In this document: piece after piece, positions 1,498 to 36,600 of the stretch
How positions within the stretch are numbered: position 1 is the stretch's first letter
Layout: each line of letters begins with the position of its first letter
NCBI GenBank assembly: GCA_964017185.1
Contig: OZ024869.1
Location: 52,540,761 to 52,604,760, forward strand
Source: Rugalucina vietnamica
Taxonomy: Eukaryota; Mollusca; Bivalvia; Lucinida; Lucinidae
Direction: 5' to 3'
DNA length: 64,000 nt
The notes under the pieces: generated by a model
The model's input: only the letters and a program-made list of their open reading frames with translations
The model's database searches: none
What the model was told of the DNA's origin: nothing
Translations under genes and position numbers: made by a program

Positions 1498-3137
1498 TTA
1501 ACTAGAAATATGCAAACATACATAAGGCGCCAACAGCAGTATCGACTTGGAACAATCAGTAACACAAAGTTACTGGCGGGTTTAAATCGATTTTACACGG
1601 CCGTAACCTCACCCTAAGCTTCTGCAGTGGTTCATAACATTTAGTTAGTTCTTCTGTCCTCGTGGTGAATCTCTAACTAGTAATATCATCAAGAACAAAC
1701 AAATAAATCATGATAAACATCCTGATGAATCAAAAACCAGGACTCACAGATTCAGTAAGCTGCCCGACGATGGAGATCCCTGGGCGCCAAATAACTTACT
1801 AACTCCGGAGCTAAAGAAAAACATCAGTTGGACCCCGGTGGGCCAAGCAACAGACAAGAAGCTCCGGCCCCAACCAACTAAAATAAATAGCTTTAAGTCG
1901 GGGCCATCATAGAGTCTGACGCCCGACCCACCGGCGTGCAATTAAAGAAGGCAGCATAGTTATCAACCGTGATTGGGTTAAAAACTAAGCATGCAGACTG
2001 TCGCATAACATTCAAGTTATCCTATACGTCTGTAACGTGTTATGATTTTTCTAAACTGAAAAGAAAAATCATTACTTCCTATAAGTTTCTTAAATTTGTA
2101 AACCAAGTCACCATAAAATTCTGGTTCCGAAAGACCCTCACTTAAAAGCGTCTTTAACCCAACATTATATTTGGAAATCAATTCATAGTGTCTACGATAA
2201 AATTTAGAAAAGGTTTTTCGAAGTTTATGATACCGATAGCCCTGTTGGAGAAGTTTGGCCGTTAAAGATTTATTTCGAGCGTTAAAGCTTTCTTAAGAAG
2301 ATTTTACTGGACTACTCCAGGTGTGCCTAGGAAGGCAGAATTAATACGGATACAATACAATACAATACAATACAATGGCGAGAATAAGCCGTTTTTACAC
2401 ATCGATTGTTTCACCTAGAATTCCATCGTTAATACAAAGTAATGCTCACCGACACTTGGCCATTGGACGTAACACACTTTTAACTTTCTAACAATCAAGT
2501 TTTCTCCACAAAATTCTGCATCTTCTTTTTTAACAGATTCGTTTTTCAGCTGTTTGTCAATCGTTTTCTCTCGTGTCGGGCCGTTTCCGGAACGAGCCGA
2601 ACACATATGCCGACGTTACGGAAACTGACGTCGAACATTAATTTACTCAAAGTTGTTGTTTATTAAAGCCATGTATAGAAGCAGATCTTGACGTTTAAAT
2701 TGTGTGCAGTTCAGTCCCCTTGTGACTATATATATATTGATTAAATCAGCCGTTGTCTAATTTAAGCACATTTTTGAACATAAAACGTAATTCAGCTTCA
2801 GTAAAGATATAGTAATAAGAACCACAATAGAAAAAAGTAAGTCAAACATACATGTACATGTAACAACAAGTACAATTAACCTGACATAATTCAGTAGACA
2901 TATAGGATAGAAGAATTCGGTAGTACTGAAAGAGGATGATCTTTTCATAAAATAAATAATTTTCTGGTTTGAACAATACGAAGACGACCTGAAGTGTCGT
3001 GCAGGGCTTTCTAGTGACAACCAACACTACCATCAGTAACCAACGCAGATGAAATCATAACGTTGGCATCAGGGGGCAACGTCCTCCCGGGAGCAAAATG
3101 CCATATGTCATTATGACAAGTTACAAATAAAATATAG
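1498..3137. other. Intergenic, no gene found
   Basis: Holds a (TACAA)n tract at about 2346-2376 and several short chance open frames without family features. 3011-3137 may be the left flank or outer part of the hammerhead element. Confidence 0.5.
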
Positions 3138-3140
3138 TAT

Positions 3141-3186
3141 GGACTATATTGCGCAATTTCGGGTAATGAACCCTCATCAGTAGCCC
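3141..3186 (-). ncRNA. Hammerhead ribozyme 1
   Basis: On the minus strand: stem I GGGCUA pairs with UAGUCC (one G-U), then core CUGAUGA, stem II GGGU-UCAUU-ACCC, core GAAA, then a palindromic stem III AUUGCGCAAU, with the predicted cut after the A that follows it. Every invariant core base is present. The very short palindromic stem III suggests action as a dimer, as in other animal type I hammerheads. Confidence 0.72.
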
Positions 3187-3515
3187 TTTTTAAACCGGCA
3201 ACGAACGCCAGACTATTGTGCTGCAATTTCGAGAATTAACACGAGGAGTCTAAATCAAAGACATATTCCTAAATTGGGTAAAATATTTTTAAACTTTGCT
3301 TAGAAGTAGGTTTCTAAACGTGAGTTTTTTTGAACACTCTGAATATCTTTACTGATCTCAAAGGGCCGAAATAAAAATATAATCTGCACTATGGATGATG
3401 TACGGGGAGACTTTTTACGGCCGACACACGGCACAACACCAGCTGCAGTAATAGCAAATAAAATATAAAGGTTTGATCCTTTGGAAGCAGTAAAACATTC
3501 AAAGGGAGATAGTAT

Positions 3516-3561
3516 GGACTATATTGCGCAATTTCGGGTAATGAACCCTCATCAGTAGCCC
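3516..3561 (-). ncRNA. Hammerhead ribozyme 2
   Basis: Identical to the fold at 3141-3186, same strand, 375 bases away. Confidence 0.72.
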
Positions 3562-3725
3562 TTTTTAAACCGGCAACGAACGCCAGACTATTGTGCTGCA
3601 ATTTCGAGAATTACAAGCCACTATTACAAAGAAATCGCACCCCACTGCCCTAATATAGCTTAGATAAGCTCCAAGATTATTTCTCTGACCGCATACCTAA
3701 AAAATTCCAATGCAGCTACCCTAAA

Positions 3726-4437
3726 ATGCCAGATTTTAACATAGACCTGAATGGTATTTTAAAACTTTTAGCAAATCTTAAACCGGATAAAGCCCCAGGT
3801 CCTGATGGAATTAAACCTGTTGTCCTAAAAGAACTTAGGGAGGAGATTGCACTAATCATCCAATTAGTATTCCAAAGGTCATTGACCACTGGAAAGATAC
3901 CTGCATAATGTTAGCCCGGTCTTCAAGAAGGGTAGTAAAAGTGATCCTGCCAATTATAGGCCCATCTCCTTGACATGCATATTGTGTAAGGTGATGGAGC
4001 ATATAATTGCATCAAAGCTTACACAACATTTCAATAAACATAATATCCTCTATGATCTCCAGCATGGTTTCAGGGAAAGGAGATCATGCGAAACACAACT
4101 TATTTAACTTGTTGAAGACCTGGGCAGGAAACTTGTAGAACGTAAGCAGGTAGACCTTGTCTTGCTTGACTTAAGCAAGGCATTTGACAAGGTCAGCCAT
4201 TCTAAACTTCTGTTCAAATTGTCCCAGCATGGAGTGAAAGGAGATACTCTAAATTGGATTAGAGTTTTCCTTGTGGGTCGAACCAGGGCCGTAGTGCTGG
4301 AGGGGGAGAGCTCATCTGAGGTCCCTGTGACATCGGGCGTGCCCCAGGGATCTGAACTTGGGCCTCTCCTCTTCCTGCTCTATATAAACGACCTACCACA
4401 AAACATCCAATCTCAGGTCAGACTTTTTGCCGATGAT
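3726..4437 (+). pseudogene. CR1-like reverse transcriptase, N-terminal part
   Basis: Frames at 3726-3908 and 4162-4437 carry the fingers/palm motifs up to the F-A-D-D catalytic box. A frame shift lies near 3905 and a stop near 4108. Confidence 0.75.
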
Positions 4438-5893
4438 CTGAATCTGAATCTGAATCTGAATAGTTTACTGGTGACACGCCAAATGACATTATTTCACCAG
4501 GGGGTTCGGATGGGGGAGAAATTAGTCCCTTGAACGCACGAGTGAAGCGAATTTGGACACACAGTCATCAGACATTTCAGCAGAGGAGACAAGTGAATCG
4601 GGGAGGTCATTCCAGTCCCTGATAGTCTGTGGAAAGAAACTACTTTTGTACGCTTCTTTGCTAGCTGAAGGTATCTGAAAAGCCAAAGAGTGTTGATTTC
4701 TACAACGGCTATTCTTTGGGATAAGGTCAGCTGTGGGTATTCTGGCTTTACCCTTTAGACCTTTGTATAGCAATATAAGTCTACTATCCTTCCTCCTTTT
4801 CTTAAGAGATTCCCATTTCAGTTGACCTAAAATGCCAGTCATGCTCCCAGTTTCAAAAACATAATTTCCCGTCACAAACCTTGCCGCACGATTTTCGACC
4901 TTTTCCAGTTCTTCCTGGAGGCCATGAGTGTGAGGGTCCCAAACTGAGCTTCCATATTCCAAGACCGGCCGCACCAGTCCTTTATAAGCTGCTTCTTTCA
5001 CATCTGGGGGACAAAAATACAAATTTCTCCTCAAGAATCCGAGAGTTCTGTTAGCCTTTGTACAAACATTGGATCTATGAGTATTCCATTTCAAATCATC
5101 TGTGATAGTTACACCCAGGTATTTTATGCTTTCAACGTTTTCCAGTAAAGTGCCATCAAGGGTGTAGTTAGCCTGTATCTTACTAGACCGTTTATTTGTC
5201 AGCTGCATCATGTTGCATTTGACGGGTTGAAATCTCATTCCCCATTTTCTAGCCCAACTGCCTAAGCGATCAATGTCTCTTTGAAGTTTCAATGTATCCT
5301 CTTCATTCTTGATTTCACGATAGCAAACACAATCATCAGCAAAGAGTCTTATTTCAGACTCGATGTCTGCTGAGATGTCATTTATATACAAGGAAAACAG
5401 CAAGGGGCCGAGAACGGTGCCCTGAGGGACACCCGACACAACTGGAGCCCAATCCGATTTAATACCATTAACCACTACCCTTTGTTGTCTGAAACAAAGG
5501 AAAGCATTTATCCAATTCAGTGTTGTTCCACCTATTCCATAGCTGAACAATTTGCTTTTAAGGAGTTCATGAGGAGGAGTATCGAAAGCCTTTTCAAAAT
5601 CGAGTATAAAAGTGTCGACCTGGCCTTTTTTGTCTAAGATTTTGGCCCAGTCATTTATCACTGTAGTCAACTGAGTTTCACAGCTATGCCATTTCCTAAA
5701 TGCGTGTTGCCTGTCCGACAAGAGTTCATGTTCATCAAGATGGGCCATAATATTAGAGCATACAATATGTTCAAGAAGCTTACAAGGAATGCATGTCAAA
5801 GAAACAGAGCGGTAATTGCGGGCAAGTGACCTGTCGCCCTTCTTAAACAGGGGGCAAATATTAGCAAGAGACCATTCTTTAGGAATTTCACCT
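4438..5893 (-). mobile_element. 5'-truncated CR1-like LINE nested in the first LINE
   Basis: Inserted head-to-tail against its host exactly inside the F-A-D-D box. GAT flanks both sides (4435-4437, 5894-5896), a minimal target duplication. The 3' end on the left shows an (ATTCAG)n tail on its own strand, typical of CR1 elements that end in short repeats rather than poly(A). Confidence 0.82.
4522..5893 (-). CDS. Reverse transcriptase of the nested CR1-like LINE (partial)
   Basis: An open frame of about 457 codons from the truncation point to a stop at 4522. It has L-D-F-E-K-A-F-D, V-S-G-V-P-Q-G-T-V-L-G-P, L-F-A-D-D and Y-L-G-V-T, then a C-terminal W-N-D-L-P. The catalytic aspartates are present. 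The endonuclease and any ORF1 are missing through 5' truncation, so it cannot move itself. The lack of stops suggests a fairly recent insertion. Confidence 0.82.
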
Positions 5894-6375
5894 GATACGG
5901 CTGTCTATCTGACAGTTGGTTCCTCCGATGATAAGGACATCCTTCAAGCCGACCTTGATACACTACAAATATGGGAACGAGCCTGGGACATGGAGTTTAA
6001 CCCAAGCAAATGTCAGGTACTCCACATTTCAACGTCTAAACCACTGAATACCCAGTATACCCTCCATGGTCAGGTGCTTGAATAAACCAACACAGCTAAG
6101 TATCTTGGTGTAACTCTGTCCAAGGACCTCAGCTGGAATGAACAAATCAACTCTATTACTGCTAAAGCAAACAGAACATTAGGATTTGTCAAAAGAAATG
6201 TAAAAACTAAAAATTAAAAAGTAAAAGAACTGGCCTATAAAACATTAGTACGTCCCCAGGTCGAATATGCTTCCCCTGTTTGGTCCCCCCCCCCCACACT
6301 AAAGAAATTGAAATGATTCAGAGAAGAGCATCTAGATGCGTAAAATACAATTTCTCCTCCTATGAAAGTGTTACT

Positions 6376-6690
6376 ATTTTTCTTTTGTATTTTTCTTTTG
6401 ATCCTTTGAGATCAGTGAAAATATTTGGAGTATTTCAAATATATCATACGTTAAGAATCACCATCTTAACAGAATTTTGAATTTTGGCCTCTTTGGGAAT
6501 ATTCGTCTTTGATTTAGACTATACTGGTGTAAACTTTGGAAATTGCAGCTATCATGAATGTCTGGCTTTCGCTGCCAGTTTTGTAAAGGGTCACTGATGA
6601 AGGTGCATTACCCGAAATTGTACAATATGGCCCACCTTTTCTCTTTGAATGTTTTTACTGCTTCCAAAGGATCTAACAATTATATTTTAT
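6376..6690 (+). mobile_element. Single retrozyme-like monomer inserted in a LINE
   Basis: 315 bases, diverged copy of the unit at 3138-3613, opposite strand. It splits the reverse-transcriptase reading frame of the LINE between E-S-V-T and D-M-L. TTACT at 6371-6375 and 6691-6695 is a 5-bp target duplication. Confidence 0.65.
6588..6633 (+). ncRNA. Hammerhead ribozyme 3, diverged
   Basis: Stem I is GGGUCA with UGGCCC, still fully paired although both strands differ from the other copies. Core CUGAUGA and GAAA are intact. Stem II keeps GGU/ACC but its first pair is A-C. Stem III is AUUGUACAAU, again palindromic. The paired changes support a real RNA fold. Confidence 0.65.
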
Positions 6691-7034
6691 TTACTGACAT
6701 GTTGTGTGAGCTTGGTTGGAGATCTCTTGCAAATAGACGAATTGATGCCCGAATGATACTACTGTACAAGATTATACATGGATACGTAGCAATAGAACTA
6801 CCAACATACTTTGAGAGACACATAAAATACACTCGTCACATGCACCCTCTTGTGTATAAGCAGATTCATACAGCTGTCAGTTATTATCAGCACTCTTTTT
6901 ATCCTGCATCAATAGTCCTCTGGAACAGACTTCCTTCAGAGGTTGTCCTATTGGAAGATCTTGACTCCTTCAGAAATGGAGTCTGTAAGATCAATCACTT
7001 GTCACCTTAAATTTCATACACTGTTTTTAAAAAG

Positions 7035-7198
7035 TTACAAGTAGGCAAAGATCAGGAAAAGGCGCAATCAGAAAAAGATTCCCACTCCAAAAACCGAGGT
7101 GGGAAAAAAACCAAACTAACAGTCAGGTACTTATACCATGAAACATATCGTAAGCCGAATGAGCAGCTATTTTCCCAATAGGTGGCCACTCATCTTTT
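7035..7198 (+). repeat. Interspersed repeat K, copy 2
   Basis: Same sequence as 1327-1497; it interrupts the 3' region of the host LINE. Confidence 0.7.
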
Positions 7199-9869: not shown

Positions 9870-10455
9870 TATTATTTTGAGCGAAGCGAAATGTAGTATA
9901 GATTTGCATAGGCTTTTATGTCATTTTTCTCCCATAATCTTTGAATTACTTGAACATTCGGTGAACATCCAAATAAATGATTAAAATGTGATTTGAGGCG
10001 ATATTTACCTATGTAGCATTTTTTTTCGTTTCGGCTAAAATTGATTCCTAGAATTACACAAGGGCAAAGTAAGACCTTCCGGATATGATGGGATACTTGA
10101 GAAGAAATTTAGTCATTTTTGCCATAAAATCTAGCTTAGATGATGGTTGTTGTCATGTTTAAAAATCTATAGATTTAGCAATATGTTTTTGAAAATCATG
10201 TAACTCTACTTTAATGATTGGTTTAAACCCAGAACGGCGTTTCAAGCTTATATTTTCCGCCACTGATACGACCCAGGAAATTAAGAACTGTCAAACTTGT
10301 CTTGAGTCTGAGAAAAAATCAGTGTGGCATTTTATGATTTGAAGTCATGACTTTTGACGATTAGCAGAACCATTCAAATGGCATGTTTCATCTATTGCAT
10401 TGCATTTCCACAATGAAGAACAGTTGCGCATAGCCTAAATATTTCTGAGCAAAAT
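9870..10455. other. Upstream region of the RhoGAP gene
   Basis: No TATA box, repeat or exon is evident. It probably holds 5' UTR or an upstream intron, but no start site can be placed. Confidence 0.4.
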
Positions 10456-11022
10456 ATGGCTGAATCATTTACTATTGGCTCTGTGCGTCTTGCAAGGGCA
10501 TTATATGACTATACATACGAAGATGACAATAACCAGCTTGTGACAATGAAAATGGGAGAAACATATCACTTGCTAAATGATGACAGTGAGGACTGGTGGC
10601 AGGTCAAGCGACCCAATACGCTGACATCATTTTATGTTCCGCGTACTTATGTTGAAGTGATAGGAGCTAATCAGTTAAATTACAACTCACAAGAGGATAT
10701 AATAGATAGTGGCTTTTCAGGAAGTCAAGGGTCAATTGATCAGGAAGACATTAATCAAAATGTGCATGTGAAATCTTTAACAAACACACAAAGCCAAAAT
10801 GGATTAACATCCTTTAAGCCAAAAATGGAAGACGGTAACAGTGAATCTCTGTATATAAATTACAATGGTGGTGCTAAAAATGTCACTAGTATTCAGGTTC
10901 AATACCATGGCAAAGCTCAAAGGCCAACTGACTTTGGATCACAAGATTGTGGTGAATATGCAAATCTGGATGATCTAAGAGCAGCTGCTGGAATGCAGCC
11001 TCCTGTAGAGAGTTATGATGAG
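10456..11022 (+). CDS. ARHGAP12/27: Exon 1: start codon and SH3 domain
   Basis: Encodes residues 1-189. The SH3 signature is clear: A-L-Y-D-Y near residue 15, E-D-W-W-Q-V near residue 46 and the Y-V-P-R-T-Y-V strand that ends the fold. After it comes an acidic, Ser/Asn-rich linker ending S-Y-D-E. The ATG at 10456 is chosen because it lies directly before the SH3 with no upstream in-frame continuation. The donor is AG|GTAATC at 11023, phase 0; reading past it leaves family-like sequence and stops at 11160. A 5' untranslated exon may exist upstream but is not seen. Confidence 0.9.
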
Positions 11023-14000
11023 GTAATCGCTATTCAGTTATCACATTTACATTGTTTTAATTCAGAATACTGGAAGTTTACTGGAGAAACACATAAAATA
11101 ACAATAGCACAACAAGGGTGCTTTAGCTGGGAAAGATTAGTCATAACCCGTAAAAGTTAACCCAGTTCAATAGCCAGACATTTCAGCAAAGGTTTGAGTA
11201 TTTAAAATTCAGTCCAGACTTAGTCTGAGGAAAGCATTGCTAATTGATGAAACTCATAAAGAATTGGTGAGGCTTCTTCAGGGTCATTCACATGATTCAT
11301 GAATACATACTGAGATGGAAGTTCATACAACTCTGTTATTGTGGATGCATACATTTTTAAGTTACCGTTAATCAACCTATTCTTCAATGAATGCATGTCA
11401 TACATATAAACGTATGTTGTTGCCTTGTGGAAATAGCTCTCTTGCTCACAGCACTTTTTTCACAGTACAATATCAATCTCTACATTCTCATCCTAACATT
11501 AGAGTAATATGTCTGTGCTGGTTCTCGCAATCAATGTTTTGAGCAAAAGCAAGAAAAATATCAAACTTTTTCAACGGAATTTTTCTCAATTTTTACAGGT
11601 CTTAGGAAAATATGTGTATTGCATGGGCATATTTTCATAATGAATGTTGAGTCTCAACATGATCTTGAATATTATACATCATCAAGGTCAGATTGTTTTT
11701 GCTGCATATTTACAGCTGAGCAGCAAACATTGCTTGCATGTTTGACCTGGTCAGAATGATCATTTATTTTTATCATTCAGTCTCCTCAGAGCGACTATGC
11801 CAATCTACAAGAGCTTCACTTTGAGCCACCAGTGGAACCAGCCTCCCCACCGTTACCAGAACAGTCAAAATTCCAGAAGACGATCATGAACAAATGGGAC
11901 ATGTTTCTTGACCCAGAAACTAACAGGATGTTTTATGTACATAAAGACACAAAAGAACGCAACTGGAAGCCACCGAGGGATAAGAACATGCCAGGAACGT
12001 TCCATAATGAAATGTACAAACAGGTAAGAGTGTTCACGTTTCTCCTATTTACCTTAATATGTAAACTGGAGACTAACAAATAAATGAAATAGATACAGTG
12101 AGTGTATGGCGATTGGGATATGAGCTATGTCACAGTGCAGGTTCTATCTAGTGGTGTTTTTATCGCACCTGCTTTTAGCAGGGTGCCATATAGGAGTCCA
12201 AATTTCTGTCCGTCCGTCTGTCCGTCCGTCCGTTCGTCCGTCCGTCAACATTTACGTCGAAGTTTAGTTTTCTCGACATCAGTGATAGCTGCGAGTCTGA
12301 AACCTTGCATAGTAATTGTCCTTGACATACCCTTCAAGCCGCCACCTTGACCCAGTACCCTTGACCTATATTTCACAGTCCACTGACTTTGAAAATTTTT
12401 ACGTCGAAGTTTAGTTTTCTCGACATCAGTGATAGCTGCGAGTCTGAAACCTTCAGGGTTCGAAAAACCCGGGTATTAAACCATAAAACCCAACCCAGTG
12501 GGTTTCTGCGGGTAAACCCGTATACCCACTGGGTAGCGGGTAGTGACCAGTATTAGAAATTTTATGATCTTTATATCTAATGATGATACTCGAGTATTGA
12601 GCAAGGTATTAAGGCATTTTAGAAATGAATGTACAAGTAACAAGACATTTGAATTTATCTCATTTGAATAACCTATTTAGATTGTGTGAAGCAATCCCAA
12701 AAGAACAATCAGCTATCTAACCAAGCTAGCAGGATTGCATTAGGGGTGTTTGACGATTAGAAAGAATTGAAAAGATACAGAGGTTTAACTTCTCGTTGAG
12801 TTTTTTTGTTGTACTAAATGGCTGATCGACATGCACAGAAGAAAGACTTGGTCTGTGACAGACTTATGATAAGAGAATGGTAAAAGATATTTCTACTGCC
12901 ATAAAAATAATCAGATAAATCTAGCTAAGTCACATTTTACCTATAATTCATCATTTAACTACCATGCCATATGTCATTACAGCTAGACATACAAGGCAGT
13001 CAACTTAGAACAAACATACCAAACAATTAGTTAGCACCTCATTTTAGCAGTGCCTAAATAGGTGCCATATGGGGTATTGTTATAAAAGTGTTATCAACAC
13101 TTCCTAGAGCAATAATTAGGTGAAAACACAAACAAATGATTAAAGCAATTGTCTACCAAATGTGAGAGACTGATTGATGACATACTTTCATTGCTAGCTT
13201 TCATTGAAGTACAGTTCTAAAACTATCATAATTAGCTCGTACTAATATTCAAAATTGATGGTGTCATGGAATTTTAGTGGATGTAATATAAAGTACACAT
13301 TAGTAGTAAATTTTACTTAGTGTATGTTTTTAAAGAAATTTTTTTTTTTTTTTTGTCTGTCAAATTACTGTAAAATACACAAATGTGAACATCAAAAATA
13401 GTGAGGACCCACTAAGTACCCACTTTTTCAAAATAAGGCTTAAAGCCCAACCCGGGTTTACCCGGGTAAAACCCGTGGGTAAACCCGGGGAGAGATGGGC
13501 ACTTCGAACCCTGGAAACCTTGCATAGTAATCGTCCTTGACATACCCTTCAAGCCGCCACCTTGACCCAGTACCCTTGACCTATATTTCACGGTCCACTG
13601 ACTTTGAAAATTTTTACGTCGAAGTTTGGTTTTCTCGACATCAGTTATAGTCGTGAGGGTGAGACCTTGCATAGTAATTGTCCTTGACATACCCTTCACG
13701 CACGCACCTTGACTCGCTGACCTTGACCTATATTTCACGGTCCATTGACTTTGTTAATTTTTACGTCAAAGTTTGGTTTTCTCTGCATCAGTGATAGCTG
13801 CGAGTGTGAAACCTTGCATAGTAATTGTCCTTGAAATACCCTTCAAGCACACACCTTGGCCCGCTGACCTTGACCTATATTTCATGGTCCATTGACTTTG
13901 TTAATTTTTAAGCCAAATTGTTTTTTTCTGCAGTGATAGCTGTGAGTGTGAAACCTTGCATAGTAAATGTTCTCCACATACCCTTTCAGAACACACCTTT

Positions 14001-22216: not shown

Positions 22217-25200
22217 TCGGCGTCCGCGTCCGCGTAGCTTCTTTCTTACGCGATATCTTTTGAACCAGTGGATGGATTTTGACCAAACTTGCATAGATAC
22301 ATGGTTGGGAGGGGGGAAAGAGTTGATTAGATTTTGGTGACCTTGACCTCATTTTCAAGGTCACCAGCCCATGAAAACTGATCAAATTAGGTTTTCTGAC
22401 GCGATATCTTCTGAACAAATGAATGGATTTTGAGCAAACTTGCACAAGAGCATTGTTGGGAGGAGGCTCAGAGTTGATTAGATTTTGGTGACCTTGACCT
22501 AATTTTCAAGGTCACGAGTCCATAAAAACTATTGAAATTAGTCTTTCCAATGCAATATCTTGTTAACCTATTGATGGATTTTGACCAAACTTGCACAGAA
22601 GCATTGTTGCAAAAAGGCTCAGAGTTGATTATATTTTGGTGACCTTGACCTAATTTTCAAGGTCACGAGTCCATAAAAAATGTTGAAATTAGTCTTTCCA
22701 ATGCAGTATCTTGTAAACCAATCGATGGATTTTGACCAAACTTGCACAGAAGCATTGTTGGGAGGAGGCTCAGAGTTGATTATATTTTGGTGACCTTGAC
22801 CTAATAATCAAGGTCACGAGTCAATAAAAAATGTTGAAATTAGTCTTTCCAACGCGATAACTTGTAAACTAATGGATGGATTTTGACCAAACTTGTACAG
22901 AAGCATTGTTGCGAGAAGACGCAGAGTCGGCTAGATTTTGGTGACCTTGACCTAATTTTCAAGGTCACAAGTCCATAAAAACTGTTGAAATTAGTCTTTC
23001 CAATGCAATATCTTGTAAACCTATTGATGGATTTTGACCAAAATTGCACAGAAGCATTGTTTGGAGGAGGCTCAGAGGTGATTAGATTTTGGTGACCTTG
23101 ACCTAATTTTCAAGGTCACGAGTCCATAAAAAATGTTGAAATTAGTCTTTCCAACGCGATAACTTGTAAACCAATAGATGGATTTTGACCAAACTTGCAC
23201 AGAAGCATTGTTGCAAGAAGGCTCAGAGTTGATTAGATTTTGGTGACCTTTATCTAATTTTCAAGGTCACGAGTCCATAAAAAATGTTGAAATTAGTCTT
23301 TCCAATGCAGTATCTTGTAAACCAATCGATGGATTTTGACCAAACTTGCACAGAAGCATTGTTGGGAAGAGGCTCAGAGTTGATTATATTTTGGTGACCT
23401 TGACCTAATAATCAAGGTCACGAGTCCATAAAAAATGTTGAAATTAGTCCTTCCAACGCGATAACTTGTAAACGAATGGATGGATTTTGACCAAACTTGT
23501 ACAGAAGCATTGTTGCGAGAAGGCGCAGAGTCGGCTAGATTTTGGTGACCTTGACCTAATTTTCAAGGTCACAAGTTCATAAAAACTGTTGAAATTAGTC
23601 TTTCCAATGCAATATCTTGTAAACCTATTGATGGATTTTGACCAAACTTGCACAGAAGCATTGTTGGGAGGAGGCTCAGAGTTGATTAGATTTTGGTGAC
23701 CTTGACCTAATTTTCAAGGTCACGAGTCCATAAAAAATGTTGAAATTAGTCTTTCCAACGCGATAACTTGTAAACCAATAGATGGATTTTGACCAAACTT
23801 GCACAGAAGCATTGTTGCAAGAAGGCTCAGAGTTGATTAGATTTTGGTGACCTTGATCTAATTTTCAAGGTCACGAGTCCATAAAAAATGTTGAAATTAG
23901 TCTTTCCAATGCAGTATCTTGTAAACCAATCGATGGATTTTGACCAAACTTGCACAGAAGCATTGTTGGGAGGAGGCTCAGAGTTGATTATATTTTGGTG
24001 ACCTTGACCTAATAATCAAGGTCACGAGTCCATAAAAAATGTTGAAATTAGTCTTTCCAACGCGATAACTTGTAAACGAATGGATGGATTTTGACCAAAC
24101 TTGTACAGAAGCATTGTTGCGAGAAGGCGCAGAGTCGGCTAGATTTTGGTGACCTTGACCTAATTTTCAAGGTCACAAGTCAATAAAAAATGTTGAAATT
24201 AGTCTTTCCAACGCAGTATCTTGTAAATCAATTGACGGATTTTGACCAAACTTGCACAGAAGCATTGTTGGGAGGAGGCTCAGAGTTGATTAGATTTTGG
24301 TGATCTTGACCTAATTTTCAAGGTCACGAGTCCATAAAAAATGTTGAAATTAATCTTTCCAACGCGATAACTTGTAAACCAATTGATGGATTTTGACCAA
24401 ACTTGCACAGAAGCATTGTTGCGAGAAGGCTCAGAGTTGGTTAGATTTTGGTGACCTTGACCTAATTTTCAAGGTCACGAGTCCATAAAAAAATGTTGAA
24501 ATTAGTCTTTTCACTGCAATATCTTGTAAACCAATCGATGGATTTTGACCAAACTTGCACAGAAGCATTGTTTGGAGGAGGCTCAAAGTTGATTAGATTT
24601 TGATGACCTTGACCTAATTTCCAAGGTCACGGGTCCATAAAAACTGTTGAAATTAGTTTTTCCGATACGATATCTTGTAAACTAATAATTGATGGATTTT
24701 GACCAAACTTGCTCAGAAGCATTGTTGTGAGGAGGTTCAGAGTTAATAAGAATTTGGTGATTGTGACCCAATTTTAGACAGGGTCCAAAACAAGTTTAAA
24801 CTATCAGACCTTACATGGTGTCTTCCCTAGAAAAACTTCATATCACAAGGTAGCTACACTTCAATTACTAAACGGTTGGGGGGACATAGTTTTCCTCAGA
24901 AAACACTGTTTTAATTTCACTTCAAACTACTTGTGCATGCCACATCATATGACAGTGCGTTGGTTGTCGTGACAGTATTAGCTTTAAGATTGTATAGACA
25001 TGTATATATAAATATATAAAGTTATATAAAGAAAGTCAAAAATGGATTCTCTAAGAGTGACTGAACAGCAGAGTATGGCTGTTATGGAATATAGAAATTT
25101 TGAAGCTCCTTGGTTGCACTTGAAGCCATGTCACCTTAATAAATTCAGCAGTCAATATATAGAGACTGAGAGTGATGCTGGATATAGGGATAAGGTAATT

Positions 25201-27654: not shown

Positions 27655-30600
27655 TCATTTATTTTGAACTGCAAGAAACCACAGACAATAATAACATACA
27701 TACAATGTCTTATTATTCTAAGTTATACGAACGGAGCAAAGAAGAGCAGCAGAACACAGCGCGTCGGAGACGAGCTGCACCTACTCCTCATCTTTGCGCA
27801 GTTTGCCAACTTATAATGTGACACCAAAACAACTTACTCAAGAATAATTAGTCAGTCTACCAGAGCGTTGAATGAGATCATCCCCGGTTTGATCCCAGAC
27901 CCGCAACACCTTTATTAGTTTGATATTATTGAAAATAGCTTCTAGGGTTTTTAACAAACAAGAAGAAAAAAAAGGAAACAAGTATAGGAAGATCGGTCAG
28001 AACCGCTACTAACTTAATAGTTGACAGTGAATGGTTATAAATGGATGGGAAGGGCAAATTCGATTTGTATATAATTAGTCTTAAAAAGACGGATTAAACA
28101 ATGGTATATATTTTTGCCACTTGGTCCGGAACCCACAATAATTCTGAACGAGATTTGCCATGTATGCTTCTGTTTTATAGTGTGATGTTATTAATCTTAG
28201 AAAAGCGTTGAATGATGGCAGATTTCCTTCACTTTTAGCCCTAAAAATATGTTTTTTGCCCCAAAGTATAATTTTATTTAAAATTTCATCAAATTTCGAA
28301 TTTCCAAATAAGATGTCTGATGTATTTAATATTAGGTTTTCAAAATTGCAATTATCTTCCAATAATAATACCAATGTTTCCCAAAAATACTGTACATATT
28401 CACAGTCCCAAAACAGATGTTTAATTGTTTCCTTCTCTTCATTACAGAAGGAGCATTTATTATCACTTTTTATTTTCATATTACATAGGAGGTTATTAGT
28501 TCCCAGAATCCTATGGATTATTCTGAACTGAAACCATCTTAAATTTGTGTCTTTTATTGAAGCAAAAGGAAGTGTTAAAACTTTTCTCCAAGAAAAATTT
28601 GGTTCCAAATGTAATTCCATTCTCCATTTATCAAAGGTTATTGTAGGCATTTTAGCATTTATATAACACTGGTAAATATTTCTGCAGCCTTTTTTGTGTT
28701 TTAATATAATGTTTAGTGGTAAGGGCCGTATTGGGCCCATCTCCAATTCTGTTATTTCACGAATATTTAATGCATTGATATAGTTTCTCACACTGGCAAT
28801 CAAGCCATAGAATTCTAGAAAATTGGTTTGGACTGTATATATCCTTCTAAATTCTTCATATGATACTAATTGTCCGGTTGAACTCATCAAGTCTCGAATT
28901 GATAAAATACCATTTTCAATCCATGAATTATAAAAAACCGAGGTATCTCCGACCTTTATATTTTTATTACGCCATAACATAACGCCCATAAGGTCATTAA
29001 AATTCTGAGGGGTCACCAAATCTATGAAGGTTTTATACGTTCTTAGTATGTCATTCCAAAATTTATTGCTGACATTATTCAGTTTCCTTTCTGTTATAAA
29101 TTGACTCCCAAATGTAATACAATCTTTGATAACAGAATACCTATCTAGGGTACATGTAAAATATTTACTTTTTGTAGTTAACAGTCTGCGAAACCACGTG
29201 AGCCTTAGGGAATCAATGAAACTATCTAAGTCAATCATTTTGAGACCGCCTTTTTCATAATTTTGTATAATTATAGATCTTTTTACTTTATCGGGACCCC
29301 CATTCCATAAATAATTGTAAAACATATTTTGTATCTCTCTTATTAGCCTTGCGGATGGCTTTGGAAGGGAGATAATTAGGTGATTCATCTTTGATAAAGC
29401 TAGGCTTTTTATAACAGTTATCCTCCCAAGGGGGGTTAAGATTCTCTTTGACCAACTTAGAAATACTTTTTTCATTTCTTCTATTTTGGAAGAGTAATTT
29501 ATTTCAGTTATTTTATCTAAATCTTTAGGGAATTTTACTCCCAAGACCGTGAATTCAGAGTTATCCCAACATAAATTGTGTTCTTCACAAAACGTTACTT
29601 TAGAATTTTTTTCGGATCCAATCCATATCAACTTAGTTTTATCCATATTAATACAAAGGCCGGAGATATCTCCATATAGCTTTAAAACTTTCAAACAATT
29701 TTCTAATGACTTTTTACTGCCATCAAGTATTAAAGTTGTATCATCAGCGTATTGGGAAATAACAAATGATGTAGTCTCCATCTTTATACCTTTAATAGCT
29801 TTATTATTAGCTCACCTGAGCCGTCAGGCTCACAAGGTGAGCTTATAGTATACCCATGCTCCGTCGTCCGTCCGTCCGTCCGTCCGTCGTCCGTCCGTCG
29901 TCCGTCCGTCGTCCACCATTTTCAAAGATCTTCTCCTCTGAAACCGCTTGGCCAATCAAAGCCAAATTTTACATGAAGCATCTATGGGAAGGGGGAACCA
30001 ATGTGTATATAAATAATCCAGGTCACATGACCAAGATGGCCGCCATGCCCATATATGGTAAAAACCCTTCAAAAATCTTCTTCTCCGGAACCACTGGACC
30101 GATTTCAACCAAACTTGGCATGAAGCATTAATGGCTCAAGCACTACAATGTATATATAAATCATGACCCTATGATGACCTTGACCTATTTTACGGCAAGG
30201 TCAACATAGGTCGCGAATGCATTTGAATGGGAAAAATTGTTAAATTGTCATTTAAAGGAAAAATCTTGCAGAAAATGAGCAGTAGGACTGAATATTAATG
30301 ATTCTGAAAAAAATTGGGCACCAGGGGCATGCGCGGATCCAGAGGGGGGGACCGGGGGTCCGGACCCCCCCTGGAATTTGAAAATTTTACCTAAAAAAAA
30401 GGTAATTTAGGGATTTTTTGGGGGTTGGACCCCCCCTCGTCTGTGACCAAAAATTACCATTTTCGTTGGACCCCCTCTCATGAAAATTTCTGGATCCGCG
30501 CATGAGGGGCTCATCCGCCCCCACCCCGGGGCAATATACATGTATATCTCCATAATATTCAAACATCTTCTCCTCTGAAACCGCTTGGCCAATCAAAGCG

Positions 30601-33600
30601 AAATTTTATGTGAAGCATCAATAGGAAGGGGTAACAAATATGTATATAAAAAATCCAGGTCACATGACCAAGATGGCCGCCATGCCCATATATGGTAAAA
30701 ACCGTTCAAAAATCTTCTTCTCCAGAACCGGTTGACCGATTTCAACGAAACTTGGCAAGAAGCATCGATGGCTCAAGCACTACAATGTGTATATAAATCA
30801 TGACCCTGTGATGACCTTGACCTATTTTACGGGAAGGTCAACATAGGTCACCAATGCATTTGAATGGGGAAAACTTTTAAAATGTCATTTAAAGTGAAAG
30901 TCTTGCAGGAAATGGGCAGTAGGACTGGATATTAATGATTCTGAAAAAAATTGGACCCCAGGGGCTCATGTGCCCCCACCCCGGGGCAATATACATGTAT
31001 ATTTCCATAATATTCAAACGTCTTCTCCTCTGAAACCGCTTGGCCAAACAAAGCCAAATTTTAAGTGAAGCATCTATAGAATGGGGGAATCAATGTGTAT
31101 ATAAATAATCTAGGTCACATGACCAAGATGGCCGCCATGCCCATATATGGTAAAAACCCTTCAAAAATCATCTTCTCTGAAACCAATAGACTGATTTCAA
31201 GGAAACTTGGCGTGAGGCATCGATGGCTAAAGTACTCCAATGTATATATAAATCATGACCCTGTGATGACCTTGACCAAGTTTATGGCAAGGTCAACATG
31301 GGTTGCCTGTGCATCTGAATTGGGAAAACTGTTAAAATGTCATTTGAAGGAAAAAGCCAACAGGAAATTGGCAAATGGACAGAATATTGAAGATTCTGAA
31401 AAAAGAAAATGGCCCTGCACTGGAGTTAAATACCATAATATTCCAACATGTTTATTGGTATATGCAGCTGATCTCAGGTGAGCGTTTACAGGACCATTGG
31501 TCCTCTGGTTTCTTATTAGAGCAGCTAGTATTTCGGCACATAATATGAAAAGATAGGGTGAGAGGGGGTCTCCTTGTCTACAACCACGTTGAAGATAAAA
31601 CCACTCTGATAGGTGCCCATTGACAATTACACACGACTGTATGTTTTTGTAAAAGACATGAATCCATTGTTTAAAATCATTCCCAAAATTAAAGAAATCT
31701 AGAACGTCAAAAAGGAAGTCCCATGAGACAGTATCAAATGCCTTTTCGAAATCGATCAATAGAAGCATACCTGGTATTGCGTTTTTCTCTGCATATTCTA
31801 TAACGTCATACAAAAGTCTTATGTTTTCTCCGATAAAACAGAAATAAAACCGGTTTGATCTTCATTAATAATATAAGGTAAAACGCATTTTAGTCTTTCA
31901 GCAATACATGCAGATGCTAATTTGTATGAAGTATTCAACAATGATATAGGTCTCCAATTTTTCAAATATAACTTGTCCTTATTTCCCTTTGGTAGGCATG
32001 TAATAACTCCATATTTTAAAGAATCCGATAACTCCCCTTTAACAAAGCATTCATTAATCGCTCTCAGTAAAAAGGCTCCTATATCGTTCCAAAAGAATTT
32101 AAAAAATTCATAGGTATATCCATCAAAACCAGGGCTTGAATTATTTGAAGTTTTCTTAAGACAAAAAAGAAGCTCGGAGTAAGTAATGGGGCCCTCAAGC
32201 TTGTTTTTATTTGACTCACATAACCTTGGAATATCATAGTTGCCAAGAAGAGATTCTAAATCGGTAGCATTTCTATCTTTTATAGAATATAATTTCTTAT
32301 AAAACTGCATTGTTTCTTTTAAAATTTCCGATTGTTCACTTATTATTTCACCCTCCTTATTTTTCAAACTGTTCATACATTTACTCACGAAGTTCCTATT
32401 CTCTAGATTACAAAAATATTTTGTTACTTTTTCACCATCTGAAATCCACCTGGCTCTTGAGCGTATTTTAACTCCTTCCATTTTTTTATTCCTTATATCT
32501 TGGAGTTCATTTCTTTTTCTCTGTAATAATTCATGGTTAATATTGTTTGCCTTTTCTAATTTCTCTATTTCATCTAATAATTTGTTTTCATGATTTATTT
32601 CCATTTTCTTTTTATATGATGAGTAAGCTATGGTTTTTCCTCTAATTTCCATTAATAAAGTATCAAAAAATAATTGGTCGCTAATTGAGAAAAGTAGATG
32701 CTGAGCCGAAATTTTGACATGATATTGAATGTCTTATAGATACAGTAATGTATACCAAATCTTATTTAAATAATGCTTTCTTCTCATTATTTAAGAGAAC
32801 AGTGTGAATTTAAATAATAATCATTTCTAATCATTAGAAATAAACAAAAAACGCATAAAATTATCTTTTGTATCCATATGTATCATTGTACATATATGTA
32901 GATGTATGTGTATTTTGAAATTATCACATCTTCTATCTATTGGTGCAGCATGTAGCTTTTACTAATTCCTAGAGAAAGGGCAGTGGCATAGTAGTAGAGC
33001 AACTGACTTCGTATCGAGAGGTCTTTGATTCAAAGCCCACTAGGGTGCTGTGTTGAGTCCTAGACCAAGTAAAATTACTCCCTAAAGGAATGGTTAATAC
33101 CAAAGAAGCAGTGGCCCCATTCCGACATGACTGAAAAATTGTTGACAGGGATGTTCACCCATAACCTTATTCCTGGTTAATGTTAAAAATGATTCTTTAC
33201 AAATTGCAGGTAAAGCCTAGAGTTTTAAGCTATAGATTTCAGGATCCCTATCTTAAATCTTTTCGCTCTGTAGAGGTAAACTTCTGGGGTAGTGTTTTCT
33301 CTAAAAAAAAAATCATGCAAGGGGAAGATGGCCATTTTATCGTGGTATGTGAAAATTATCTTGTCTTGACCAGTTTGATTTTTGGCTCGCCTGCACGAAG
33401 TGCACAGAGCTATTGTTGTCACCTCGGTCATCCCCGTTTACGTTTAAGTGTACGTCCGCGTCACACTTTCGGTTAAAGTTTTTAAAATTGTTATATCTTG
33501 ATAGTCACTGACCAGAAATCATTCATATTTGGAACATTGCTGCATATGAGGGTCCTCTGTGATTTAGTGTGAAGGGACCCGTGGGGTCGTGCCTGGGGGC

Positions 33601-36600
33601 GGGGCTAGAGGTCAATATCTAGAACACCTTTGTACAATGCTCAGATGCTGTGTTAGTTTCTCATGAACTGTAAAGCCTAGAACTGTCAAACTTTACATAT
33701 GGCTTCTCCTCGATGTCCCGACTCGGCACCCACATTGACCTACTGACCTTGACCTATATTTCATGCTCCAGTGACTTTGTCATTTTTTAATCCAACCCTT
33801 AATATCTCATCAACTATAAAGCCCACAACCATCAAACCTTGCATATGGCTTCTCCTCGATGTCCCGACTTGGCACCCACATTGACCTACTGACCTTGACC
33901 TATATTTCATGCTCCAGTGACTTTGTCATTTTTTAAGCCAACCCTTAATATCTCATCAACTATAAAGCCTACAACCATCAAACCTTGCATATGGCTTCTC
34001 CTTGATGTTCCGACTTTGCACCCACATTGATCTAGTGACCTTGACCCATATTTTGTGCTCTAGTGACTTTGTCATTTTTGAAGCCAACTCTTAATATCTC
34101 ATCAACTATAAAGCCTACAACCATCAAACCTTGTATATGACTTCTCCTCGATGTCCCAACTCGGCACCTACATTCACCTAGTGACCTTGACCTATATTTT
34201 GTGCTCTAGTGACTTTGTCATTTTTGAAGCCAACCCTTAATATCTCATCAATTATAAAGCCTACAACCATCAAACCTTGCATATGGCTTCTCCTCGATGT
34301 CCCGACTTTGCACCCACATTGATCTAGTGACCTTGACCTATATTTCGTGCGCTAGTGTCTTTGTCATTTTTAAAGCCAACCCTTAATATCTCATCAACTA
34401 TAAAGCCTACAACCATCAAACCTTGCATATGGCTTCTCCTTGATGTCCCGACTTGGCACCCACATTGACCTACTGACCTTGACTTATATTTCACGCTCCA
34501 GTGACTTTGTGATCAATGTGTTCATTGTTAGCTTATTTATGCAAATAGCTCCCTATACAAAATACATCTACAGGCAAGGTCAAGGTCACGGGTCATAGAT
34601 TTTAACAAATTTAGTGGCAAAGCACAAGTCAGGCAAGCTACGCTGTCCTACGACAGTTCTTATTGAATAGATATAAGAAATAGACAAAATATACGAAAAA
34701 GAAATTATCATTCTGTAACTTTTGTTTCTTATGTTATTTGATACCCTGGTCAAGTAAAAATAATTTCACATGCCAATAGGTAGCATCAATTATAGCTGAA
34801 ATCATGGGTTTAGCAGAAATCATGGTTTACAAAACATTTTGTATTATAGAAGTATTCTCATGATTTTGCCTGATTTAATGGTTCCAGGTTTTATTTACTG
34901 TCATGATTGTTTCCCATTTTTTGTTTGTTTTATACGGTATGTGTACTTCGTTTAGGTTGGTGAAAATATGCATTTCAGTGTGTCTAATAAGGGGGCGCTT
35001 TTTAGGGATTTGGGAAGAATTGTCATTTATTTTCAGGGATTTGGGTGGCAAGCAGTTCTTTTGGGTTTTAAGGGAGCAGGGATCTGAGGAAAAACTTTTT
35101 TAGGGAGCTGGGCAGAAAGGCTGTTTTTCTTTCAGGGAGCAGGCAGCTAAGACCCCCACCACCCCCTCAGAATGTGGATCAAAAGGCGCTTATGCCTCAC
35201 TTAAAATTGTGAAAAACAGATGTACTTTGAATATTGGCTATTAAATGTAAATACTCTCTTTCTATTGACTTGAATTCAAAATTCATGAGGAAATATTCTT
35301 GATATTAAACACAAATTAGCATTATTTTTAAGTTGAAGCTTTCAAATAAGCATTGTTTCATTGAGGTTAAGAGTTTTAAAAGTAGCCTGATTTTATTTCA
35401 TATCAGCTTGTTGATAAAAAGAGACTCATAGCTATTTTGAAAATGTTAGACATTAATGAGCCGCCTTGTGGGAAAACCAACAATTTGGTTTCTGAACAGG
35501 TCTGACACAAATCAGGCTGTACAGTAACAGAAGCAGGCTAGAAGCTTGAAATTTCAGATTTAAGAAGAAGAGGAAGTGTACTATCCGTGTAGCAAAAACA
35601 AAGGCGCTGATCAGCTTCACAGTTACCACGAAGCTGATCTGCGCCTTTGTTTTCGCATATGCAGATTGTTGGTTTTCTCACAAGGTGGCTCATTTATTTG
35701 TCATTTCTTTATATCCGCATGTTCAGTATCAATTTTCGGGTTGAGATTTTCGTCAAGAAAATCAGCCTTCAAGTTTCGTACCAGAATTTACAATTACAGA
35801 AAATAGCCAGGTGCTTAAAATTTGGATTTAGGAAGTATAGGGAGTTGCAAAAAGCAAAGCTGCTGCCAATATGTGTCTATTTTTTTTTCCTCCCATATAA
35901 TGCTAATAGCAAGTTTACCCATGACATTGCTGAGGTTGGGTTGAAATTTAAAATGCTGTCAACTGATATGTATACAGGAAGATAGTTTACCATCAATGGT
36001 CATGAGTAATTTTGGTGACTGTTATACATACAAGTGAACTTAAAATTTATGTATTTTGTACTTGATTCTTGTCTTGAGAAAACCTGTCTTCAGAGGTTCT
36101 GACCTTCAAGGACACAAACCAGCATTCCCAACCATAGCATAGGGGTTCAATTTTTCCTGTATGTAATTTACGCGGAAAACTGTATATGTGTATATTCTTC
36201 TCAATATTTGACTAAGGCACTGATCATACTGCATTGATTTGTAGGCTGAAATACACTGGCTGACACATGCATTGTATTATGAGAAGACTAGCTTTTTGCA
36301 ATGTACCCCTACTTTGGGTATCTAAGTTTCTATTGTCCTTCTGCTTCAAGTTTTCGATGGTCTTCTGTATTTGCACACTGCATAGTAGTCAGTCCATAAC
36401 CCATGAAGACAGGCTTTCTTTATACTATAACACACACAGCTCATGGACTTTGCTTTGGTGTAGGCTTTATTTATGATGTTCATGATGCTGTAAGATTCTA
36501 TATTGTATATCATATCAATTTCATAATTGTATTTCATTGCACTGCTTTTTTAGGGGAGACAGTGTTGATATATGAGTCGCATGATGAGAAAACCAGATTT

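Follow-up and report, generated by a model that had tools for sequence, protein, structure and literature searches.

Two hammerhead-bearing insertions

The window analysed here is a 64-kb stretch of the genome of the bivalve Rugalucina vietnamica (64,000 nucleotides of contig OZ024869.1), and the element in question is a short non-coding repeat with hammerhead ribozyme motifs, which lies there as two insertions of opposite orientation: a partial tandem array on the minus strand, array A/B, and a diverged monomer on the plus strand, copy C. Array A/B (3127-3610) measures 484 bp, or 1.3 units with a period of 375 bp, and is without a recognisable protein frame. Followed along the minus strand from ~3610 to 3127, it consists of a 105-bp repeat, 270 bp and an identical 105-bp repeat. 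The first of these terminal direct repeats (3509-3613) forms part of the 5' unit in the ribozyme sense and carries hammerhead B, and the second (3134-3238) forms part of the 3' unit and carries hammerhead A. The two agree at 105/105 positions, and the spacing of 375 bases that the sequence-only reading had given for two of the copies is exact. Because the repeats are identical, the array insertion looks recent. It is the only tandem locus of the element in the window. The GC content of the array is 0.382 and its longest ATG open reading frame has 27 codons; none of the three stop-to-stop frames of at least 60 amino acids that overlap it had a Pfam match up to E = 0.1. A short B-box-like word, GTTCAA, occurs in the A/B unit and was not used as evidence.

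Copy C (6376-6690, plus strand; 315 bp, GC 0.327) is set within the reading frame of a long interspersed nuclear element (LINE). Along the A/B unit, blastn aligned it in pieces with identities of 73% and 80%. It is without ~70 bp that, in the unit, separate a shared tail word, described below, from the AT-rich beginning of the following unit. Between the array and copy C lie a LINE piece with RVT_1 at 4108-4533 and an inverted LINE with RVT_1 at 4522-5904. The sequence-only reading had treated 3138-6690 as one element; a single 3.5-kb retrozyme with three hammerheads was rejected in favour of two opposite-oriented insertions with LINE fragments between them, and the span is a neighbourhood. 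When 3100-3700 and 6380-6700 were compared with the window by blastn (E up to 0.01), only A, B and C were recovered. A conserved 26-mer, allowed up to 3 mismatches, gave one match in A/B, copy C being missed owing to an indel, and searches for relatives by exact patterns gave 0 matches among viral contigs and 0 among contigs of prokaryote genomes, which is what one would expect if the element belongs to animals.

The positions and strands proposed earlier for three hammerheads were confirmed by a reading of 2800-7100 and by a descriptor scan: hammerhead A at 3141-3186 and hammerhead B at 3516-3561 on the minus strand, and hammerhead C at 6588-6633 on the plus strand. By layout, all three are of type I. 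Each has, as previously described, a 6-bp stem I and the cores CUGAUGA and GAAA, with a stem II closed by a 5-base loop, and a 10-nt palindrome that contains A15.1 and U16.1 and is followed by A17 and the second strand of stem I, in what we take to be the usual hammerhead numbering. The predicted cut falls between 3147 and 3146 in A (AUA/UAG, the slash marking the cut), between 3522 and 3521 in B and after 6627 in C. Stem II of hammerhead C has an A.C mismatch at its base. The descriptor was composed once the motifs were already known. It demanded a stem I of at least 5 bp, CUGANGA, a stem II of at least 3 bp with a mismatch tolerated at its base, GAAA, a stem III of at least 3 bp including A15.1-U16.1, and a base other than G at H17. 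It matched the window exactly three times, at A, B and C, and 300 dinucleotide shuffles of the window gave 2 matches in total; the simpler pattern CTGAYGA...GAAA had 8 matches in the window, of which these three satisfied the descriptor. Hammerheads A and B are identical, so the three motifs represent two independent sequences.

The outer limits of both insertions were placed by putative target site duplications (TSDs), which are weak. For the array, the word TTACAA stands at 3121-3126, where it partly overlaps element sequence, and at 3611-3616, where its first three bases are shared with the 105-bp repeat; when borders were placed at random 2000 times with equal slack, a match of at least 6 bases arose in ~4.5% of the placements. 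Copy C is flanked by TTACT (6371-6375 and 6691-6695), and a match of at least 5 bases was reached in ~10% of such placements.

Two 105-bp repeats around 270 bp with a possible 6-bp TSD might also be read as a small long terminal repeat (LTR) element with 105-bp terminal repeats, a short interior and a target duplication of 5-6 bp, either a terminal-repeat retrotransposon in miniature (TRIM) or a plant-like LTR retrozyme. In the excerpts of PMC6934838, TRIM terminal repeats measure 100-250 bp and bivalve TRIMs have no clear primer binding site (PBS), and the final 30 bases of the array's interior, taken on the plus strand opposite the ribozyme, include one run of 8 purines. However, simple word checks of the array ends found no TG..CA borders, no TGG of a PBS near either internal start in either direction, and, on the strand of the ribozyme, no polypurine tract (PPT). 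Nor is copy C a solo repeat; it is a monomer opened at a different point. Plant LTR retrozymes resemble the array in that two hammerheads bound one unit and a self-cleaved circle is the proposed intermediate, but the excerpts of PMC4918200 describe them as mostly of type III, with LTRs, a PBS, a PPT and 4-bp TSDs, which were not found here, where the hammerheads are of type I by layout. LTR or TRIM identity was rejected on borders, PBS and PPT, and we hold this explanation to be barely credible.

The element is very probably a non-autonomous non-LTR retrozyme of the metazoan kind, and an unremarkable representative of a group already described. Metazoan non-LTR retrozymes with type I hammerheads are expressed as RNAs of ~170-400 nt (PMC7229834); they are non-coding repeats of 150-450 bp with low GC and without LTR, PBS or PPT, and their TSDs, when present, exceed 4 bp. 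The sequence here shares with them the type I core, a unit of 150-450 bp, the lack of coding capacity, a GC below 50% and the absence of LTR, PBS and PPT. The retrozyme layout recognised in the sequence-only reading agrees with the anatomy and with those structural features that were tested, the span as a single element excepted. The closest likeness by description, not by sequence, is to the retrozymes of the mussel Mytilus galloprovincialis, which have type I hammerheads in tandem non-coding units (~350-390 bp, compared with 375 bp here), a GC below 50%, neither LTR nor PBS nor PPT, and abundant circular RNA (PMC7229834). The present element differs in its short possible target duplications of 5-6 bp and in being known from DNA alone.

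Predicted folding and the weighing of the retrozyme reading

Stem III, with three pairs and a tetraloop, is kept in all three copies, and the core and stem I pairing are retained between copies as diverged as the array and copy C. When pairing partners were slid by 1-3 columns, paired cells fell from 96% to 15-50%; the structure used in this test was derived from the tested sequences themselves, which biases the test toward that structure. The 13 pairs compared between the two distinct sequences comprise nine that are invariant, one with a two-sided change (U-A to C-G), two with one-sided changes and one that is broken.

In the folding models, cleavage through a dimer in cis, by way of the palindromic stem III, is supported, because the exact double hammerhead emerged when two A hammerheads were cofolded and again when the 484-nt array was folded without constraints at 37 °C. 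The pairing probability of the palindrome in the array was 0.88-0.91 at 15-37 °C. A similar arrangement is known from axolotl and newt retrozymes (repeats of ~330-350 bp, PMC7229834), which are alike in length and carry a stem III loop that is palindromic and suits cleavage as a dimer; newt repeats cleave through a dimer (PMC6155905). Two axolotl motifs have a stem III of 1 or 2 pairs, compared with 3 here when A15.1-U16.1 is counted, and the axolotl count may differ in this respect. The dimer may be an aid rather than a requirement, because published invertebrate retrozyme hammerheads, those of the mussel included, cut well as monomers (PMC7229834, PMC7761336), a cloned mussel repeat at ~0.1 per minute. 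In the modelled 375-nt circle, stem I of the hammerhead had a probability of 0.07-0.16, a low value that would help the circle to stay closed. This behaviour is not special to the element, as stems I and II were found in the minimum-energy fold of 18/100 single-hammerhead circles with shuffled context.

A number of results speak against the retrozyme reading or against its dimeric part. Rfam gave no hammerhead match over the 64 kb at gathering scores and none over 4.3 kb up to E = 10. Scans of short stretches covered A and C, B being the same as A in sequence; over 111 nt, copy A gave a weak alignment to RAGATH-1-hammerhead that keeps the core in register, with 16.5 bits against a cut-off of 56.3 (E 0.97), and copy C had no hammerhead match over its short stretch. 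The sequence-only reading had expected a covariance-model match and had named the lack of one as a ground for giving up the claim; formally, at Rfam thresholds, a lack is what was found. Folded in isolation, the 46-mers do not form a complete hammerhead at minimum energy, and the hammerhead fold lies above the minimum by 2.7 kcal/mol in A and 5.0 kcal/mol in C. In shuffled context, the exact double hammerhead was the minimum-energy fold in 14/100 cases. The 375-nt A/B circle is no more structured than its shuffles (z -0.75; a 310-nt stretch of copy C as a circle gave z -1.97), and 62% of it is paired, below the 'above 70%' given in the excerpts of PMC4918200. According to PMC7229834, the hammerhead can form in most metazoan circles, some mussel ones excepted, and the modelled circle differs from that majority. 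The broken pair is the base of stem II in copy C, and covariation comes down to a single pair out of 13 that changed on both sides, with two sequences compared. A shuffling control reached the covariation value in 257/500 shuffles, as two sequences cannot discriminate; of the paired stem I substitutions claimed earlier, the one U-A to C-G exchange stands, on thin ground. The matches taken as TSDs are weak and short (5-6 bp), compared with 15 bp reported for Nematostella. The earlier suggestion that the palindrome suits dimeric cleavage is supported by the cofold of A and by the 37 °C fold of the array, and three points stand against it: the probability of stem I in the array is 0.46-0.57 at 37 °C and 0.009-0.14 at 15-25 °C while the palindrome and stem II persist, cofolding of copy C yields no hammerhead, and the published precedents cleave as monomers.

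Some of these points could be expected of a tandem satellite or a relic resembling a short interspersed nuclear element (SINE), which would keep a hammerhead-shaped sequence without any cleavage or circle stage. The departure of single hammerheads from their model minimum, and the broken stem II base and missing double-hammerhead cofold of copy C, would fit such a relic, and judged by these models copy C is probably inactive. Set against this are the core and stem I pairing kept at 73% and 80% identity of the blastn pieces and the identical array repeats, by which the insertion looks recent; with regard to a SINE, ARAGORN found no tRNA in the window. We judge a relic of this kind to be highly unlikely. 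As for Rfam, we judge that its misses weigh less than the counts from the descriptor scan, the sequence that the copies share and their arrangement, and the case is an example of short-stem hammerheads falling below Rfam thresholds.

Ends of the insertions and their surroundings

Both insertions finish in a common tail word. The 12-mer TATATTTTATTT occurs 3 times in the 64 kb, compared with 0.03 occurrences expected, and all are within retrozyme copies: at the 3' end of the array (3125-3136, minus strand), in the interior copy of the full unit (3456-3467, minus strand) and at the 3' end of copy C (6681-6692, plus strand), where the element stops 63 nt beyond the cut. In the full unit, the first ten bases of TATATTTTATTT end 64 nt beyond the predicted cut. 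The terminal unit of the array ends 20 nt beyond the cut, with 44 nt absent between hammerhead and tail relative to the interior unit. Because the last unit is without these 44 nt, the AT-rich tail of the array could be partly host sequence, a further point on the opposing side. The 5' ends are unlike: the array starts 89 nt before its first cut and copy C 252 nt before its own. Just before the tail lies the best-conserved 25-base window of the unit (24/25 bases, one indel). In a two-strand model without shuffle control, this stretch pairs in a long stem with the AT-rich start of copy C (-33.4 kcal/mol) and likewise with the matching part of the A/B unit (-27.3 kcal/mol). Single-strand folding energies of four short stretches (z -0.61 to -0.01) were not used.

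A shared 3' end with unlike 5' ends resembles the tail left by the reverse transcriptase of Penelope-like elements (PLEs), and, as it comes from two insertions, we take it as a lead. It also raises the question whether the insertions are themselves PLE remnants, in which case the 105-bp repeats would be pieces of a hammerhead-bearing pseudo-LTR, set in tandem by PLE insertion, with the coding part lost. PLEs have type I hammerheads, tandem or partial tandem arrangement, AT-rich targets and possibly a short tail beyond the hammerhead (PMC11167929), and insertions that finish in a common tail word beyond the hammerhead are what PLE remnants might leave. The parts cited of PMC11167929 and PMC7761336 show the same likeness for PLEs with minimal hammerheads: type I, partial tandem and a tail beyond the hammerhead. 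Yet no match to a reverse transcriptase or GIY-YIG endonuclease was found in the array, whose three frames are without a Pfam match, and stem III is present, with three pairs and a tetraloop, whereas PLE motifs usually are without helix III (PMC7761336, PMC6155905). Copy C, moreover, is a free-standing 315-bp unit. PLE remnants are accordingly an improbable explanation in our view, and a retrozyme remains the preferred one.

The surroundings of copy C consist of a decayed LINE (3654-7010, plus strand), which is interrupted by the inverted LINE (4522-5904, minus strand; an open frame of 460 aa with RVT_1) and by copy C itself. The long frame 6558-7010 that overlaps copy C is that of the LINE and had no Pfam match. 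When the empty site was joined at TTACT, the LINE frame continued across it and aligned with the window's second reverse transcriptase at a score of 161; alternative joins within ~20 bases scored up to 169, and the protein alignment therefore backs the region of the insertion without fixing it to a single base. A 13-bp unit, TATTTTTCTTTTG, stands twice at the 5' edge of this copy (6375-6400), perhaps through a slip or an untemplated addition at insertion.

Elsewhere in the window, two further LINE frames lie on the minus strand, one at 28081-29811 with RVT_1 and zf-RVT above cut-off and one at 31819-32733 with RVT_1 below cut-off. The sole Rfam match at gathering score is SECIS_1 at 1851-1918 on the minus strand (39 bits, gathering cut-off 35); Pfam matched neither of two minus-strand frames near it above cut-off, and these yielded no selenoprotein. 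Probable exons of a host gene at 10417-11160 and 11760-12083 on the plus strand encode an SH3 domain and a WW-like stretch that falls below the Pfam cut-off; the gene is perhaps a Rho-GAP. The LINEs, the SH3 exon and the SECIS match are in keeping with an animal genome. Three tandem arrays with units of 146-151 bp (13514-13999, 22240-24775 and 33659-34510) have listed consensus units that all contain TGACCTTGACCTA, and they are possibly related satellites.

Proposed cycle and mobilisation

In the cycle that we propose, a read-through transcript of the tandem locus would cut itself at AUA/UAG, and would probably do so most readily where two hammerheads of the same RNA are paired by way of the 10-nt palindromic stem III. 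This would release the 375-nt unit, which a host RNA ligase would close into a circle. The circle would have a single hammerhead and a model fold that prefers other pairings, and would tend to stay closed. The reverse transcriptase of another element would then copy the circle, sometimes beyond one round, starting inside the RNA near TATATTTTATTT, and the product would be inserted. Closure by a host ligase and copying by a foreign reverse transcriptase follow the model of PMC7229834. The enzyme may be target-primed and perhaps Penelope-like, as is suggested by the common 3' end and the unlike 5' ends.

According to PMC7229834, animal retrozymes may be carried by LINEs or by PLEs, of which PLEs are the strong candidate, and in the excerpts of PMC7761336 no conserved motif of animal retrozymes indicates the mobilising element. 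The Penelope-like enzyme studied in PMC11167929 starts copying within its RNA, 111-118 bases into the frame, the hammerhead cut being at 26; it favours ATT as a target, a fraction of its copies carry a tail, and hammerhead cleavage is dispensable for PLE insertion in vitro. In the same study, mutating C3 or G8 of the core put an end to cleavage by the PLE hammerhead. The shared end described here would follow the same logic of internal initiation, which two insertions cannot prove. Taken further, the ends could be the footprint of the copying enzyme, that is, of a Penelope-like reverse transcriptase that begins copying at an internal site of a circular template, joined with a switch in the palindromic stem III that, on the folding models, would be on in tandem transcripts and off in the one-hammerhead circle. 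We put this combination forward tentatively, as possible and rather unlikely.

As a retrozyme, the element is one more case of a described group, and the shared 3' end is the useful part of the case. If the footprint is true, it would be sequence evidence for the proposed and unproved mobilisation of animal retrozymes by PLEs. If copies throughout the genome share the internal 3' end, the question of which element mobilises animal retrozymes would become testable from sequence alone.

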